Source of the DNA: a virus
Strand: one strand, 5' to 3'
Virus record (IMG/VR): IMGVR_UViG_3300017770_000001
Location: 1-64,000 of that record
DNA: 64,000 nt
This document shows positions 14,333 to 37,923 of this stretch, piece by piece. Below the pieces are notes generated by a model. That model was not told the DNA's origin. It was given only the letters and a program-made list of their open reading frames with translations, and did no database searches. The stretch's first letter is position 1, and each line of letters opens with the position of its first letter. The position numbers and the translations under genes are program-made.

Positions 14333-14340
14333 TATTTATA
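14333..14340 (-). promoter_or_regulatory. T4-type late promoter of the curli/cyclase operon
   Basis: TATAAATA on the minus strand, 5 nt before the ATG at 14327. In T4 the box spans -13 to -6, so +1 falls on the A of the start codon. Twelve genes down to about 6752 follow without a terminator that I can see. Confidence 0.65.
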
Positions 14341-23351: not shown

Positions 23352-24028
23352 TAAGTTATTCTATTAAATGATGTGTAATCATCATCACCCACATCCATGG
23401 GTTGGTCGGGTCTCATGTCCATAGGGTTGGACGTGAACCACATAGGTATAGTGTACCTATCTGCCTTATAAACTTTCTTTACACCATGTTCAAAAGTTAA
23501 TCCTTCAAAGATTACCATCTCTCCTGCTACAGGTGTATATACAAATTCTTCTTCAATACCTTCTTGTTTTGGAAACCACAGTTCACCACCACCATAGTTA
23601 TCATTGAGATAACATATTGCAGCCCATTCTGTTTGTGGATATACGGGTGGTGCATCGGGGTCGTCTGAACTTAAATCAGAGTAGGTATCAATGTGGGTAG
23701 GTTGGTGACTTCCTAATGGGAATCTCATCAGTTCCGTCTGTTCGGGATACATGATATTCTTTGCGTGTTTTGCAACTTCATTGAGTGCAACCATTTCCAC
23801 ATATCTCATACAATCACGAACCATGTGTGTTCTGACATTACATAAATCTATCTTACGATTATTGTAATGTTCTGCAGTGTCGTAATTACTTAGAAGATTC
23901 GGATGAGTCTTGTGGAAGTGTATTAGGTTCTTCCTCTGAGTGTAACTCAGTACGTTCACTTTCTTGATGAACTTTAGCTTCTTCGGCTCTTCTTCTGATT
24001 TCTTCAACAACTTTAAGTCTGGCTTCAT
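23351..24028 (-). CDS. 2-oxoglutarate/Fe(II) dioxygenase (prolyl-4-hydroxylase-like)
   Basis: Double-stranded beta-helix oxygenase. Iron ligands are His and Asp in PTHIDTYS and a later His in FEHGVKKV; the 2-oxoglutarate Arg is in ADRYTIPMWF. GGGELWFPKQ is the typical strand before the second His. It overlaps the deformylase gene by 143 nt, so the true start may be further in, but no better ATG is seen. Substrate unknown; proteins, nucleic acids or small molecules are all possible. Confidence 0.82.
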   Translation of the reverse strand: MKPDLKLLKKSEEEPKKLKFIKKVNVLSYTQRKNLIHFHKTHPNLLSNYDTAEHYNNRKIDLCNVRTHMVRDCMRYVEMVALNEVAKHAKNIMYPEQTELMRFPLGSHQPTHIDTYSDLSSDDPDAPPVYPQTEWAAICYLNDNYGGGELWFPKQEGIEEEFVYTPVAGEMVIFEGLTFEHGVKKVYKADRYTIPMWFTSNPMDMRPDQPMDVGDDDYTSFNRIT

Positions 24029-24527
24029 ATTCTAATCTCTTTCTTTGTTCTTTAGGACGAGCTTTCAATGCACGTTCTAGTTTTAATCTTGATGCACGTT
24101 GGAGAAATACTATTCCATTCAAATGGTCAATCTCATGCTGTATACATCTTGATGCAAGTCCTTGTAGTTGTTCACTTTGTGTTTCACCATTCACATCTTG
24201 ATATTCTACTTCGACTATTTTTGGTCTTTTGATAGAGACATAGATGTCGGGAAATGATAGACATCCTTCTTTCTCTAACTCTGTTTCTTGTGACACTGCT
24301 TTCAACTCGGGGTTAAAGAATATCTTTGCACCTTCTGTTGTCATCATGACACAACACTTCACGGGTAATCCCACTTGATTTGCAGATAATCCTATACCGT
24401 TATACTGTGTACATAACTCAATCAGTTTGTCTGATATTTCCTTTGGGTCATGAGACGGATTGTCGAAATCAAATTGTGGTGGTGGGGTTCGTAAAACTTT
24501 ACTAGCTTCTTCTACTAATTCATACAT
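23886..24527 (-). CDS. def: peptide deformylase with charged C-terminal extension
   Basis: Removes the formyl group from nascent N-terminal methionine. All three motifs are intact: GIGLSANQ (44-51), EGCLSFP (87-93, metal Cys89) and QHEIDH (130-135). The catalytic body ends near residue 150; the remaining 60 residues are a Lys/Arg/Glu helix and an acidic tail, absent from typical phage deformylases, that overlap the next gene. Phage deformylases are common in marine viruses and probably keep up with high protein synthesis. Confidence 0.94.
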   Translation of the reverse strand: MYELVEEASKVLRTPPPQFDFDNPSHDPKEISDKLIELCTQYNGIGLSANQVGLPVKCCVMMTTEGAKIFFNPELKAVSQETELEKEGCLSFPDIYVSIKRPKIVEVEYQDVNGETQSEQLQGLASRCIQHEIDHLNGIVFLQRASRLKLERALKARPKEQRKRLEYEARLKVVEEIRRRAEEAKVHQESERTELHSEEEPNTLPQDSSESSK

Positions 24528-24530
24528 AAT

Positions 24531-26012
24531 TTACATTAGGGGATATTTTCCTCCCCCATTCACTTTTACTGTTTTAATATCTAATCCAAAGAAATTCATT
24601 AATCCTCGGATTGCCATCTTTCCAAGTTTCTTAATATAGTTGAATGCCATCTTGACTCTTGCCATGATAGCTTCCCATACTTTTTTAATTTTATTAAGTA
24701 CATTGGATGCAACGTTTTTGACTTTGTTTGCAAGTTTCGAAAAGATTGCAAACTCGTCTAGTTGCTGTAGTTCTTCTGTTAAGAAGATACCACTATTATT
24801 TATCTCTTCATTTATAATCTGTTTGAATGACTTAGTTTCTTCATTCATTCTTGCAAGGTCTTTCTTAGTCATCTTAGAAGTCCTTAGTGCAAGATATGGT
24901 TTAGACCCACTACTAGATTTAAATGAAACATAAAACTTGTTTCCCTTTGCAAGAACCATTCCTGCTTTATCTGCATTGTCAAGTGTAAGTGTATCAGACA
25001 CTTTACCAGTATCTTTAAATACTACCATCATGTTCGATGCACCCTCAGGTGAATCCATAAACTTAATGTTACCAGTTGCAGCTTCGAAACAGAAATGTGA
25101 TTTGAATTTTAAATCAGTAAAAATATCATCTAATTTATTATTGATATCGTTTGCTTTAAGGTGTCCGTCTTCTAGTTCTGCAATTCTATCTAGTTCTCTT
25201 TGTGTTAGATTACTCTTACCTTTCAAGGCTTCAATACTTCCTACGGTACCTTTCTCAGAAAGTTTAACCATTTTTTCTTCTAGGGTATCGATGACTGATG
25301 AAATTTTAACCTTACCTGCTTTGGTCTGACCAAATGTCATCATAGCTGCATTGACGGTTGCAATTGCTTCTTCTTTACCAGCAGACATCAACTGTGAACC
25401 ACCTGCTTTCTTTAATGATATCTTATGTTTGTCTTGTAGTAAGTCTGTCTTTGGTGTCTTATTTGTTGCACCATACTTAGTCCAGTGTGTTGATGTTGGA
25501 AGTGTAGATGAACCTAATTGATTTAGGTCATTGATTTTAAATCTCTTGATGAACTCATTACCAATTTTGATTGCACTGTCACCCCAGTCTCCCCAATACT
25601 TTGAAATTCTATTCCACTCATCTGTCTCTACGAATGTTCTTCCACTTTCTTTTTTAACTGCAACTGCAATTAGAGCTTCCCAGTCTTCACCACTTGGGTT
25701 ACCCGACTCGCCTGGAGAAAAACCATTGAGGTCTTTACTGATATCTGATATCTTATCAACACCCCAATTTGATTTGATGTGTTTTCTGATATTTCCTATC
25801 TCAGGTTTTAAATCACCAACATCACTTACACTCATGATTTTTTCTAGAGCATAATCATCTTTACCTAGGGGTAACATTTTACCACCATTCTCTAGTTCTA
25901 GTTCACCCGACAATGCTTTCTTATTAAAGTTATCTTTGTTTTTTCTCTTATAGATATCTTCAAAGTTTGAATTGAGTGGTGTCTCTGTTAGGTATTCGTT
26001 AAAACTCTTCAT
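24531..26012 (-). CDS. probable co-packaged head protein with PD-(D/E)xK-like nuclease core
   Basis: The first ten residues MKSFNEYLTE closely resemble the T4 capsid-targeting sequence MKTYQEFIAE, which directs internal proteins into the prohead; YLTE fits the gp21 cut rule (L/I-x-E). Inside are Glu112, Asp190 (TPKTD) and SLK at 199-201 followed by KAGGSQLMSAG, a layout like a PD-(D/E)xK nuclease site. The C-terminal 60 residues are basic amphipathic helices. No exact family is recognised. A late promoter places +1 at its ATG. It may be injected with the DNA. Confidence 0.6.
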   Translation of the reverse strand: MKSFNEYLTETPLNSNFEDIYKRKNKDNFNKKALSGELELENGGKMLPLGKDDYALEKIMSVSDVGDLKPEIGNIRKHIKSNWGVDKISDISKDLNGFSPGESGNPSGEDWEALIAVAVKKESGRTFVETDEWNRISKYWGDWGDSAIKIGNEFIKRFKINDLNQLGSSTLPTSTHWTKYGATNKTPKTDLLQDKHKISLKKAGGSQLMSAGKEEAIATVNAAMMTFGQTKAGKVKISSVIDTLEEKMVKLSEKGTVGSIEALKGKSNLTQRELDRIAELEDGHLKANDINNKLDDIFTDLKFKSHFCFEAATGNIKFMDSPEGASNMMVVFKDTGKVSDTLTLDNADKAGMVLAKGNKFYVSFKSSSGSKPYLALRTSKMTKKDLARMNEETKSFKQIINEEINNSGIFLTEELQQLDEFAIFSKLANKVKNVASNVLNKIKKVWEAIMARVKMAFNYIKKLGKMAIRGLMNFFGLDIKTVKVNGGGKYPLM

Positions 26013-26017
26013 AGTAC

Positions 26018-26025
26018 TATTTATA
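26018..26025 (-). promoter_or_regulatory. T4-type late promoter of the head-targeted gene
   Basis: TATAAATA, 5 nt, ATG at 26012 on the minus strand. Predicted start site is the start codon. Late timing agrees with a virion protein. Confidence 0.65.
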
Positions 26026-27741
26026 CTATTCTGCTATACGACTGAAGTTTTTATGTTTCTCAAATCGTAGTACGTTCTCAAACTTATCATAGAGTGCATC
26101 ACCTTTATGTGAAATGATAAATGCATTTGTTTTCTCTGTAAGTGTTGTAAGAAGTTTTAGAAATTCATCTGTACCATTGACATCAAGGGAACTGTCAAAC
26201 ACTTCATCAAGAACAAGAAGGTTGGTGTTTACACTGTTCTTCATTCTTGCAATACCTCTCCAAGTAAACAAAAGTGCAAGGTCGATTCTCATCTTCTCAC
26301 CTTGAGAGAAGTTATCGTATTTGAATTCGTCTCTGTGTCTTGACTTGATAGTCTCTTCGAAACCTTCGTCTATTTCAAACCCGACATAGAATTCCATTTG
26401 TGCAAGATACTTATTGATTAGTTTGTTCATGATTGGAATATACTGTTTGATAATCTTTTCTTTCACACCTTGGTCTTTAAGAAGTAGACCAGCTATGTCA
26501 AAGTAATGACCTTGTTCAACAAGTGTCTTCTTTTTACCTTCTAGGATTTCTAGTTTATCCTCACTGTCTGATATCTTTGTTTCTGTATCAGAAGATGCAC
26601 TGACTTCACTTTTCAATAAATCAATTTCTTTTTGTATCTTCGTAATGTATTTTTGATTGGATACGACTTCTGTTTGAGTAACACCAATTTCTTTTTGGAC
26701 TTGGTTTATCTCATCTTGTACTATTCCGATTTCTTCGAGTCGTTCTCTTGTTTCTTTAATAGTTTTGTCGAGTGAAACCACTGCCTCCTTGACCTCTGTA
26801 ACCTTTGCTGATTTCTCTTCAATGTGTTTCTTCTTGTGTTCCTCATCTAACCCCTGTTTACATGTTGGACAATTGTCATGGTCTTCATAGAATTTTACTT
26901 CTTGAAGTGCTTTCTTTCTTGCAGCTTCTAGTTGTCTTGTAACGTCTTCTGCTTGTTTTAATCTGTCTTTCTGTGGGTCGACATCACTAATTGTTTTTCT
27001 TAGAGATGTGATGTGGTCATTGTTAGACCCAATCTTTGTCATCAAGTCTTCGATGTTGTCTTGTGTTTCTTTTACTGTACTCTCATATCTAGTGATTTTA
27101 GATTCTCGATTGACTCTCAATGCTTCTAGTTGTTCGTTAAGACCATGAAGTCTTTCCTCTAGAATCTTTACCTCATAGTCTGTGTCTCTTAGTTCAACTG
27201 TATGATTCGATATCTTCTTTCTAAGTATATCTCTCATGGTACTGAATATAGAAATGTCTAATAAGTCTTCTACTAACTTACGTCTGTCTCTTGCTTTCAA
27301 TTGCATAAAAGGTGTGAAGTTTGCAGAACCTAGAATTGCAACCTGTGTAAAAGACCTGTAACTCATCTTCAAGATGTTCTTCTCTAACATCTCTTGGTAG
27401 TCTCTTTGGTTTGCCTCTTGGTTGATGAGTGTGTCATTCAGATACAATTCAAATCGATTTGGTTTTGCACCCCTCACTACCTTATACTTTTTTCTACCAA
27501 CCGAGAATTCTACCTCTACAAGTAATTCTCTCTGATTGATAGAGTTGATAAGTAAATCTTTTTTTAGATTCCTGAACCCTTTACCATAGAGTCCAAAGCA
27601 TAATGCATCTAACATGGTGGATTTACCAGCACCATTCTCACCAATAACCAATGTGGTTTGATGTGTGTCTAAATTAATTTCTGTAAATGTGTTTCCCGAA
27701 GATAGTAAATTCTTGTATCTTACCTTTTCAAATTTTATCAT
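26026..27741 (-). CDS. 46: recombination endonuclease subunit gp46 (Rad50/SbcC-like)
   Basis: ATPase of the gp46/47 complex for end resection and recombination-dependent replication. Walker A GENGAGKS (34-41), ABC signature FSQGEKMRIDLALLF, and Walker B LLVLDEVFD are near the C-terminus. The zinc hook CPTC is at 291-294 between two coiled coils. At 571 residues it is normal (T4 560). The stop overlaps the neighbour gp47 arrangement by 4 nt. Confidence 0.96.
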   Translation of the reverse strand: MIKFEKVRYKNLLSSGNTFTEINLDTHQTTLVIGENGAGKSTMLDALCFGLYGKGFRNLKKDLLINSINQRELLVEVEFSVGRKKYKVVRGAKPNRFELYLNDTLINQEANQRDYQEMLEKNILKMSYRSFTQVAILGSANFTPFMQLKARDRRKLVEDLLDISIFSTMRDILRKKISNHTVELRDTDYEVKILEERLHGLNEQLEALRVNRESKITRYESTVKETQDNIEDLMTKIGSNNDHITSLRKTISDVDPQKDRLKQAEDVTRQLEAARKKALQEVKFYEDHDNCPTCKQGLDEEHKKKHIEEKSAKVTEVKEAVVSLDKTIKETRERLEEIGIVQDEINQVQKEIGVTQTEVVSNQKYITKIQKEIDLLKSEVSASSDTETKISDSEDKLEILEGKKKTLVEQGHYFDIAGLLLKDQGVKEKIIKQYIPIMNKLINKYLAQMEFYVGFEIDEGFEETIKSRHRDEFKYDNFSQGEKMRIDLALLFTWRGIARMKNSVNTNLLVLDEVFDSSLDVNGTDEFLKLLTTLTEKTNAFIISHKGDALYDKFENVLRFEKHKNFSRIAE

Positions 27742-35851: not shown

Positions 35852-37228
35852 TTAACCTAATGGTTTTAGTTTACTTAATGCGCTAGCATATCTAGACATT
35901 GAAGGGTCAAGTACTGGTTCTGAAGATTCCTCTTCAAGAGTACCCATACCTTCTACTTCTAGGGTTTCTTCTGAAATACTTTCTGTTTCAGTAGCAGGGA
36001 AGTAAGCTTCTTTCAACTCGTTAACTTTATCACTAAAGTCTTCGATGCTTTTGAAGTCTACACCTTCTGCTAATGCAGATAGTTTTTCAGCTTGTGAATC
36101 GGATAGACTATCACTAGTTTCTCTGACCACGTTAGCTCGTTTTAATGAATCCATCTCTTCTGAAATATCCATATTCTTAGATACTTCTGCATCGAGTTTT
36201 AGTTCCATGTCATCGAGTTTATTTGCAAGTTCGTCAATAACGTTATACTTGTCTTCAGGTACGTCAACATAATGTTCAGTGAACAATGTTTTCAGACCTT
36301 CGATAAAGTTTTCAGTCATTTCCGCTCTTAGTCCACGTTCAATTGCAAGTTCATTTTCAGATGCCCACTCTTCAGCGACATATGAAAGGTACTTATCAAC
36401 TGCTTCAGTCAAATCAGATTTGACGGAATCAACCGTGGTTTTCAACTCTTGCTCGTATTGAGACTTGAGTTGTTCGTTGATTTCTGCTGCCTTCGAGTTG
36501 ATTGCAGCTTTGAAAATTGTTTTTGCTTTTTCTGTATTCTCTTCAGAAAGTTCTAGAGATTCAGATATTGCAGCTAGGTCTTCATCGACTTCGATGTCTA
36601 CGAGAGATGATTCAACTTCGACTTCTTCTTTCTTAGTTGATTCTTTTTTCTCATCTTCATCTTCGTCTTCGTCCTCTTCTTCTTTGTCTTCTTCTTCGAC
36701 AAATAAAGAGTTGAATGACTCTTCTACGTCATCTTCGTCTTTCTTCTTCATCATTTCAACGAATGCTCTAGCAATTTCTGCTTTAGTAGAATCTTCAGAT
36801 ACTTCGACTTCTTCTTCCATATCTTTAGATGACTTCATATACATTGCCATGAGTTTTTCTTTATCCATTGATTTCATTGATGAAACCATAGACTTAATCA
36901 TTTCCATTTTTGAAGGTTTTGACTCTTCAGAATCTTCTTCTTCTTTTACTTTCTTTAATTGAACTGGTTTTTCGGCAGGTGCTTCACCCTTCTGTTGTGG
37001 GTCTCCTGAAATTTCCTTTGACCCAGCCTCAGCACCTTTTACGGATTTAACAGCTTTGTCAACAGGATTTTCTTCAGGCTTAACAATCTCGCCCTTACCT
37101 GAACCAATTACAGCAGCGTCTGATGAACCTTGTTTGACTGGTTTTGCATCACCCTTCTCGGCTTTCGCCACAGGTGCAGAACTGTCTTTTTTCATCTCCT
37201 CTGCTATCATTTTTTCTAAGTTAGACAT
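35852..37228 (-). CDS. 22: prohead core scaffold gp22
   Basis: Scaffold degraded by gp21 during head maturation. Almost entirely charged, with acidic runs (EEEDKEEEDEDEDEDE) and long helices predicted to coil, beginning MSNLEKMIAEEM. At 458 residues it is longer than T4 gp22 (269). Position between gp21 and gp23 and composition identify it; similarity to T4 is otherwise low. Confidence 0.88.
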   Translation of the reverse strand: MSNLEKMIAEEMKKDSSAPVAKAEKGDAKPVKQGSSDAAVIGSGKGEIVKPEENPVDKAVKSVKGAEAGSKEISGDPQQKGEAPAEKPVQLKKVKEEEDSEESKPSKMEMIKSMVSSMKSMDKEKLMAMYMKSSKDMEEEVEVSEDSTKAEIARAFVEMMKKKDEDDVEESFNSLFVEEEDKEEEDEDEDEDEKKESTKKEEVEVESSLVDIEVDEDLAAISESLELSEENTEKAKTIFKAAINSKAAEINEQLKSQYEQELKTTVDSVKSDLTEAVDKYLSYVAEEWASENELAIERGLRAEMTENFIEGLKTLFTEHYVDVPEDKYNVIDELANKLDDMELKLDAEVSKNMDISEEMDSLKRANVVRETSDSLSDSQAEKLSALAEGVDFKSIEDFSDKVNELKEAYFPATETESISEETLEVEGMGTLEEESSEPVLDPSMSRYASALSKLKPLG

Positions 37229-37275: not shown

Positions 37276-37923
37276 TTACAAACTTTCAACAAACTTTTTC
37301 CATATAATTAACTTTGTTTCCTCTAATTTATTCAGTTTTGCAGACATAAGTTGGTCTCTCATCTTTTCTGCTTCCACTGCTTTTAGTACACCGTTTTCGA
37401 AAATCCATTCAACACCTTCCATTATCCCTTCGACAAATGCCTCGGGAGCGGATGGGTCAGCAACAATGTCTCCAGCTGTTGCTAATTGAAAGTCATCTTT
37501 AACGTATTGAGCTCCATTCTTTTGTTCTAGGGAACCTAGACCACGAGATGAAACACCAAGTTTAGCACCGTCATCAATGAGGTTTCTGACGATTTGCCCG
37601 TTTGGTGTAGATAAAACTTTTGCACGTCCTACATAATTGTTACCATCTTCTTCTAATGATTGAATTAAGTGGGACACTTTGTCCAAATTGATTGTTGGGC
37701 CATCGGGATGACCTAACTCTCCGAATGCACGTTGTTTCTGTACGAACTCTTTATTGTAACGTGCAACTTCTTCTTTGATTACTTCTTTTGGATATACTCT
37801 TCCATTTCTGTTTTTAATCTCTGACTGAATAAAAATCCCTTCAATGAAGTAATCCTTACTCCCATCTTCTTTTGATTCACAGATAGGTGTAACTATATCG
37901 TTAAACTCTGAAATTAATTTCAT
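37276..37923 (-). CDS. 21: prohead protease gp21
   Basis: Serine protease that matures the head and cuts after (L/I)-x-E. FGELGHPDGPTINLDKVSHL holds His72 and His85, and GVSSRGLGS (123-131) holds the catalytic serine, as in T4 gp21. At 215 residues it equals T4 (212). It overlaps the core gene before it by 23 nt. Confidence 0.95.
   Translation of the reverse strand: MKLISEFNDIVTPICESKEDGSKDYFIEGIFIQSEIKNRNGRVYPKEVIKEEVARYNKEFVQKQRAFGELGHPDGPTINLDKVSHLIQSLEEDGNNYVGRAKVLSTPNGQIVRNLIDDGAKLGVSSRGLGSLEQKNGAQYVKDDFQLATAGDIVADPSAPEAFVEGIMEGVEWIFENGVLKAVEAEKMRDQLMSAKLNKLEETKLIIWKKFVESL

Follow-up and report, generated by a model that had tools for sequence, protein, structure and literature searches.

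Why would a T4-like phage place a protein that resembles a restriction endonuclease directly behind a start that resembles the head-targeting tag of the T4 internal proteins? The question is raised by a gene at positions 24531–26012 of a 64,000-nucleotide stretch of viral DNA (the window), which belongs to a 135,072-base virus record (IMG/VR IMGVR_UViG_3300017770_000001; G000, consisting of the window and L085–L088). We consider it probable that the product of this gene is a nuclease that is carried as cargo in the phage head, is injected with the phage DNA and cleaves DNA foreign to the phage. The tag, a protease gene, a promoter motif, the fold, conserved residues resembling an active site, protease cut motifs and an exchange of cassettes at the locus were all computed.

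24531..26012, minus strand: whole gene for the tagged nuclease-like protein, 493 amino acids, including the stop codon (translation of the open reading frame)

The reading frame is open throughout, from an ATG at 26012 to a stop codon that ends at 24531. A Pfam search of the 493-residue protein returned no match worth noting, and the PHROGs database gave a weak match to phrog_22045 (E 8.9e-5), to which no function is assigned there.

25983..26012, minus strand: capsid-targeting-like tag, residues 1–10, predicted cut after Glu10 (T4 IPIII rules of PMC9026906 and the family-wide tag)
37276..37923, minus strand: prohead core serine protease, gp21 type (PF03420, E 4.1e-37; phrog_207, E 4.5e-78)
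35852..37228, minus strand: head scaffolding protein, gp22 type (phrog_237, E 3.5e-71)

In the T4 protein IPIII, tag residues 4 and 7 are needed for targeting and residues 8 and 10 for processing, and the protease gp21 cleaves C-terminal to Glu in the motif L/I-X-E (PMC9026906). The preliminary description had read the N-terminus MKSFNEYLTE as a tag of this type that obeys the gp21 cut rule, and the match holds at each of these positions: F4 and Y7 coincide with the targeting residues, and L8 and E10 with the processing residues. A gp21-type prohead protease, which T4-type tagged cargo requires, is encoded in the phage's own genome (PF03420) and is the enzyme expected to cut the tag; within the prohead core, the tag is expected to interact with the gp22-type scaffold.

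The tag is uncommon among the genes of this phage. When defined strictly as [FYW]xx[FYWHLIM][LI]xE within the first 22 residues, it occurs in 2 of the 171 non-overlapping open reading frames of at least 60 amino acids that a crude script called in the record. Within the related loci it is found in 22 of 53 distinct genes of the nuclease family, compared with 29 of 451 other genes. The relatives in the cultured Pelagibacter phage HTVC008M (AGE60460) and Methylophilales phage Melnitz (QZI94748) start with MLSFTGYSNLSE and MQGFKTFLSE. The second strictly tagged gene of the record (132953–133390; L088:10953–11390) encodes a 145-residue protein that begins MKNFKEYISE and is without Pfam or PHROG match.

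The 29 other tagged genes include DUF6267 proteins, cytidylyltransferase-like proteins, a Zeta-toxin/AAA_33-like protein and a DnaJ-like protein. Several of these are enzymes, and the tagging of enzymes thus seems habitual in these phages, which may deliver a wider set of them by the head. Such proteins lie in L011, L042, L058, L060, L062, L063, L064 and L077–L080, and in the cyanophages S-RIM2 and S-SSM7 (L257, L258). The KWDGAP motif of DUF6267 is reminiscent of nucleotidyltransferases. A search of the genome for a DUF6267 partner gave no match, which alone shows little.

26018..26025, minus strand: T4-type late promoter motif TATAAATA, at the end of gene 46, ending 5 nucleotides before the ATG

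The late control proposed in the preliminary description is likewise borne out at the level of the motif, because TATAAATA stands 5 nucleotides before the start codon. Within the window the motif is found 15 times, compared with 6.06 expected. Among relatives, ATAAATA lies no more than 16 nucleotides from the ATG in 63 of 64 genes that occupy the same position (the slot described below), compared with 17 of 875 control open reading frames of the same loci, although this stretch mostly coincides with the end of gene 46, so that the cases are not independent. Five genes, at 14333, 26018, 33863 and 63285 of the window and at 83424 of the record, have TATAAATA ending exactly 5 nucleotides ahead of the start codon, and leaderless or near-leaderless late messenger RNAs may therefore be common in this phage.

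24861..25724, minus strand: nuclease-like core, residues 97–384 (E112 at 25677–25679, D190 at 25443–25445, S199-L200-K201 at 25410–25418)

We used AlphaFold models and structural alignment to assess the body of the protein. The alignment comprised 44 sequences, that is, the 493-residue protein and 43 of 49 deduplicated relatives, with two proteins from annotated phages left out and four further relatives removed by hand; one truncated row was dropped for a 43-sequence set used to model the core by itself. The full-length model from 44 sequences has a predicted local distance difference test (pLDDT) score of 84 for the whole chain, with most of the core exceeding 90, and the model of residues 97–384 reaches a pLDDT of 92.6 with a predicted template modelling score of 0.89. 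When the whole protein was compared with known structures by VIA-align, the restriction enzymes MspI (Z 8.5) and HinP1I (Z 8.4) came out on top, followed by a next score of 5.4. For the core, the matches are HinP1I 2fkc (Z 9.0, 187 residues, root-mean-square deviation (r.m.s.d.) 4.0), MspI 1sa3 (Z 8.6, 190 residues, r.m.s.d. 4.3) and HinP1I 1ynm (Z 8.5, 180 residues, r.m.s.d. 3.8), with the next row at 4.1, and a Z near 9 only just exceeds what unmatched models typically reach.

That modest score counts against an enzyme fold, as do three other results: Foldseek found no match in the PDB at E ≤ 0.001 with either the full-length model or the core, sequence searches of Pfam, PHROGs and PDB sequences gave nothing decisive on the fold and no PDB nuclease, and the acidic residue of the canonical (D/E)xK half is replaced by a serine (S199). 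HinP1I and MspI also depart from the canon at that acidic position, with Gln and Asn. The two enzymes are reportedly similar to each other, according to the title of a 2005 paper cited in PMC4081073, and the match is credible even at a modest Z because the only outstanding matches, which cover most of the domain, are three chains of two mutually similar enzymes. The absence of other nuclease families from the list of fold matches is no evidence against them.

Thus, the core credibly adopts a HinP1I/MspI-like fold of the PD-(D/E)xK type, as far as models can indicate. The Glu-Asp-SxK pattern that was originally pointed out in this protein is present as E112, D190 and S199-L200-K201, and the residues E112, T186-P-K-T-D190, S199, K201, Q207, S210 and E215 are invariant in all 44 rows. 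The PD-(D/E)xK-like body predicted from that pattern is in keeping with the fold match, and a fold unrelated to nucleases did not emerge.

26026..27741, minus strand: gene 46-type recombination ATPase, upstream border of the cassette slot (AAA_23/SMC_N; we take this ATPase to be the product of gene 46)
23886..24527, minus strand: peptide deformylase, downstream border of the cassette slot (PF01327, E 1.1e-39)

Beyond what the preliminary description had claimed, the gene sits in a cassette slot in which tagged proteins with different bodies replace one another. We fetched 80 loci around relatives of gene 46, and the slot tally covers 68 of them. Left out are L181, L202, L208, L209, L215, L252 and L253, where less than 1.1 kb follows gene 46, and five further loci, all with the nuclease (L068, L230, L241, L242 and L250). 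The slot holds a gene of family B in 29 loci, the nuclease in 23 and a gene of family C in 12, and it is empty in 4, leaving 64 filled slots; across all 80 loci the nuclease is present in 30. The slot genes start with MK[STRN][FYL] in 62 of 64 cases.

Comparison of 34 loci chosen from the 64 reveals what is kept and what is exchanged. The promoter and start (–24 to +24) are as alike between families (0.78) as within them (0.79), and the same holds for the leader, taken as the first 78 nucleotides (0.67 between, 0.69 within), whereas the bodies of different families are no more alike (0.59) than shuffled sequence (0.60). In the loci L194 (family B) and L196 (family C), flanks that are 96% identical on both sides enclose different bodies. 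Three further close pairs have flanks 82–90% identical around different slot bodies, and exchanges of the nuclease for B and of the nuclease for C are also among these close pairs. The slot is therefore a site of cassette exchange, with tagged genes replacing one another behind a constant promoter and leader. Together with the tag, this exchange suggests that the enzyme would enter the host along with the phage DNA.

Families B and C have no Pfam or PDB match worth noting. They are distant relatives of each other (profile comparison, E 8.3e-17), and comparison of their profiles with that of the nuclease is not significant (E 0.1 for B and 0.089 for C). Both families keep a D-X13-S-x-K motif (D222 and S236-N-K238 in B, D221 and S235-L-K237 in C), and this motif suggests that they may be further PD-(D/E)xK enzymes. 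In L227, L228 and L231–L239, another conserved gene lies between gene 46 and the tagged slot gene; in L232 it encodes an AurF-like di-iron protein (PF11583).

24753..24815, minus strand: junction with three (L/I)xE motifs, I400-N-E402, L411-T-E413 and L418-D-E420, predicted prohead-protease sites
24534..24752, minus strand: basic amphipathic helical tail, residues 421–493, predicted C-terminal propeptide

The potential cut sites are distributed unevenly along the protein family. The N-terminal columns of the alignment, which include long inserts in some rows, carry at least one (L/I)xE motif in 44 of 44 rows and 87 sites in total, compared with a shuffled mean of 40.7. The junction before the C-terminal helices carries the motif in 41 of 44 rows (one of the misses being a contig end), with 96 sites compared with a shuffled mean of 43.8. 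None of 1,000 shuffles reached the observed number at either place, and these tests ignore shared ancestry and so overstate significance, a caution against leaning on them, although the alignment does extend to relatives of only 23% identity. Conversely, the core is depleted (77 sites compared with 104 in shuffled sequence), as are residues 31–99 (2 compared with 17.7 expected), and the tail is rich in the motif (48 compared with 18.8), with many sites at its very start.

The preliminary description had proposed that a basic amphipathic tail could touch membranes. The basic and helical character of this part stands, with 15 Lys or Arg and 4 Asp or Glu in residues 416–493 and helical moments of 0.62–0.70, although two core helices have moments of 0.76 and 0.65, so the moment of the tail alone is not distinctive. 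Contact with a membrane is not favoured, given that conserved (L/I)xE motifs set the tail off from the core. The concentration of these motifs at the tag and ahead of the basic tail, together with their scarcity in the core, makes it more likely that the tail is a C-terminal propeptide, which would be removed along with the tag. In T4, gp21 likewise processes the protein Alt at both ends, including its C terminus (PMC9026906). We also considered the tail as a module common to other slot proteins and rejected this idea: a profile of the tail reaches E ≤ 3e-6 only in the nuclease family.

A course of events that would join these features begins late in infection, when the precursor would be made from the late promoter that adjoins the start codon. 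Its N-terminal tag, through the aromatic residues 4 and 7, would dock it in the prohead core, and the gp21-type protease would cleave after Glu10 and at the (L/I)xE sites ahead of the basic tail. The mature HinP1I/MspI-like enzyme of about 390–410 residues would then remain in the head with the DNA, be injected with it and cut the host chromosome, plasmids, prophages or competing phage. Phages of the group would exchange tagged cargo genes at the slot, behind the constant promoter and leader. Packaging, processing, injection, nuclease activity and target are what we infer from the computed features. EcoRI and staphylococcal nuclease, each fused to the tag, provide a precedent for T4 heads carrying nucleases (PMC9026906, PMC3012670).

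Several findings weigh against a cargo nuclease that spares the DNA of its own phage. The tag pattern is failed by 31 of 53 family genes in its strict form and by 17 of 53 in a loose form. Two relatives detected by predicted fold in the BFVD database, from the cyanophages S-RIM50 and S-IOM18, have merely 276–277 residues and hardly any room for a leader and a tail, the nuclease homologue of Microcystis phage Mel-JY01 has neither tag nor tail, and the family C homologues of the cultured cyanophages S-RIM2 and S-SSM7 are untagged and located behind gp41 and mazG. No DNA methyltransferase of PF00145, PF02086 or PF01555 was found in the 135-kb record by a search that did give matches in control genomes, a result limited by a record that may be incomplete and by the choice of these three families; for them, the record offers no cognate methyltransferase of the kind that a Type II restriction-modification system would have.

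Nor is there support for the idea that the phage has purged the nuclease's own site in the form of GATC, a further point against such sparing. Depletion of GATC affects 18 of the 23 loci whose slot holds the nuclease and 38 of the 45 others (p 0.52). The site still occurs at close to its normal frequency, or at about half of it, next to the nuclease in L195, L214, L224 and L256, and likewise in L011, where the nuclease shares 68% identity with that of the GATC-free L010. The 140-kb record G003, in which the slot is empty, is still depleted (4 compared with 82 expected; 21-kb locus L094), and close pairs with different slot genes mostly show the same avoidance. A link to GTAC was rejected as well: this site is depleted in 10 of 23 loci with the nuclease and in 2 of 45 without, but the depletion follows lineage in close pairs. 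As an observation apart from the nuclease, the record has 0 GATC sites compared with 537 expected and 6 CCGG sites compared with 67 expected, and related marine T4-like loci lose GATC, ACGT, GTAC, CATG or TCGA in lineage-wise combinations, with many loci of close relatives lacking GATC. In active T4 whose head contains staphylococcal nuclease, the enzyme digests DNA only once calcium is added (PMC3012670).

It is unlikely that the protein is packaged and yet is no weapon, acting instead on the DNA of its own phage, within the head or on entry (in end processing, packaging or head completion) or serving as a catalytically dead DNA-binding core protein. The tag and the cut motifs do speak for the head only, and a basic tail joined to the fold of a DNA enzyme would suit contact with DNA in that compartment. 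However, the gene is accessory, its slot being empty in 4 of 68 loci and in G003, and replacement by unrelated bodies in close relatives is unfitting for a role in building the head; the invariance of the active-site-like residues in 44 sequences also argues against such a role.

We regard as quite unlikely an ordinary late nuclease that works inside the infected cell, or a selfish endonuclease gene, with an unpackaged product whose MKSF start is a coincidence of lineage. This view draws on the untagged homologues in cyanophages and in a Microcystis phage and on the weak tags of many family members. Set against it are a leader common to three families with differing bodies, the enrichment of cut motifs at the two places where a prohead protease would cut, and the late promoter motif that adjoins the ATG of 63 of the 64 slot genes, compared with 17 of 875 controls.

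Finally, it is improbable that the injected protein, like T4 Ip1–Ip3, binds a host defence enzyme with a borrowed nuclease fold, because such a binder, although it would share the tag logic and the hotspot logic of those proteins (PMC12373910), has no need for invariant E112, D190, S199, K201 and Q207, nor for a core of about 290 residues with a full enzyme fold where mature IPI has 76 residues (PMC3012670).

A tblastn search at E ≤ 1e-5 among 50,697 phage records found only Pelagibacter phage HTVC008M (two records) and four Melnitz phages, in which the proteins are annotated as hypothetical, and a profile search of IMG/VR gave 243 relatives; we retrieved the 80 best. Matches by fold in BFVD come from the cyanophages S-RIM50 (E 6.2e-10), S-IOM18 (E 7.9e-8) and S-RIM8. 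Such enzymes can do without the leader, as the untagged homologues of cultured phages show; the cytidylyltransferase next to them is the tagged protein in S-RIM2 and S-SSM7. Some members are about 700–730 residues long (L008, L010, L012, L013, L015, L031, L035 and L036). The additional domain that separates tag from nuclease in L010 and L015 is PAP2-like according to Pfam (E 6.1e-6 and 3.6e-5, each narrowly below the curated cut-off), and motifs such as LDE and LQE come after it, an arrangement that reads as a putative two-enzyme precursor for delivery by the head. In L223 (from 11728 onward) the nuclease is split into two open reading frames of 196 and 303 residues and is apparently interrupted in that contig. 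The T4-type genes of the window's own record comprise a head maturation protease, scaffold, major head protein, gene 46-like ATPase, and UvsW-type and Gp44-type proteins.

The closest parallels to the proposed head-cargo nuclease are the T4 proteins IPI, IPII, IPIII and Alt, which share with it the 10-residue N-terminal tag with aromatic residues at positions 4 and 7 and the L/I-x-E cut rule; the late promoter motif, a prohead protease in the genome and variable bodies behind a constant leader are also common to the T4 internal proteins and the present system. T4 Ip1–3 inhibit type IV restriction enzymes, share only their leader and lie in a hotspot (PMC12373910). In contrast to T4, where the internal proteins are restriction-enzyme inhibitors and Alt is an ADP-ribosyltransferase, the cargo here would be a 493-residue protein with a restriction-endonuclease-like body and its own basic tail. 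It resembles HinP1I and MspI in its predicted fold over most of the core length and in the order of an Asp followed by S-x-K on the next strand, and differs from them in sequence (about 10% identity), in being phage-borne and tagged, and in the lack of a cognate methyltransferase among the three Pfam families. The P1 proteins Dar and DdrB and the N4 virion RNA polymerase are likewise enzymes carried, or proposed to be carried, in phage heads that act on the host as the phage enters, but the passages that describe them (PMC5512222) give different domains and mention no T4-type tag. Unlike the tagged protein, phrog_22045 (a weak sequence match) and the S-RIM50 and S-IOM18 proteins (the same predicted fold) are 276–277 residues long and are not annotated as nucleases; the two cyanophage proteins consist of the core only.

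Overall, what was first noticed in this gene is confirmed as an observation, and its earlier interpretation is partly supported, with its core upheld by computation. Tagged head cargo is known as a kind; as far as our searches show, covering titles and the openings of abstracts in a partial library, the literature has no description of a tagged nuclease in T4-like heads or of an exchangeable nuclease slot. In the papers cited here, the cargo that T4 loads by its ten-residue tag consists of restriction inhibitors and an ADP-ribosyltransferase.

A far-reaching extension, which we hold to be a long shot, is that marine T4-like phages rotate restriction-like nucleases as head cargo, in cassettes behind one late promoter and one leader, with the virion-delivered enzyme cutting DNA of the host, a prophage or a rival phage, and that the striking loss of 4-base-pair palindromes in this group of phages is partly a scar of phage-against-phage restriction. 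If the proposed head-cargo nuclease is real, the known cargo of phage heads would gain an attack enzyme, a natural restriction-like nuclease encoded in an exchangeable slot, and the combination of a late promoter, an MKSF leader and an L/I-x-E cut would provide a sequence rule for finding head cargo in the abundant marine T4-like phages. Tagged homologues in two cultured phages, HTVC008M and Melnitz, make this proposal testable.
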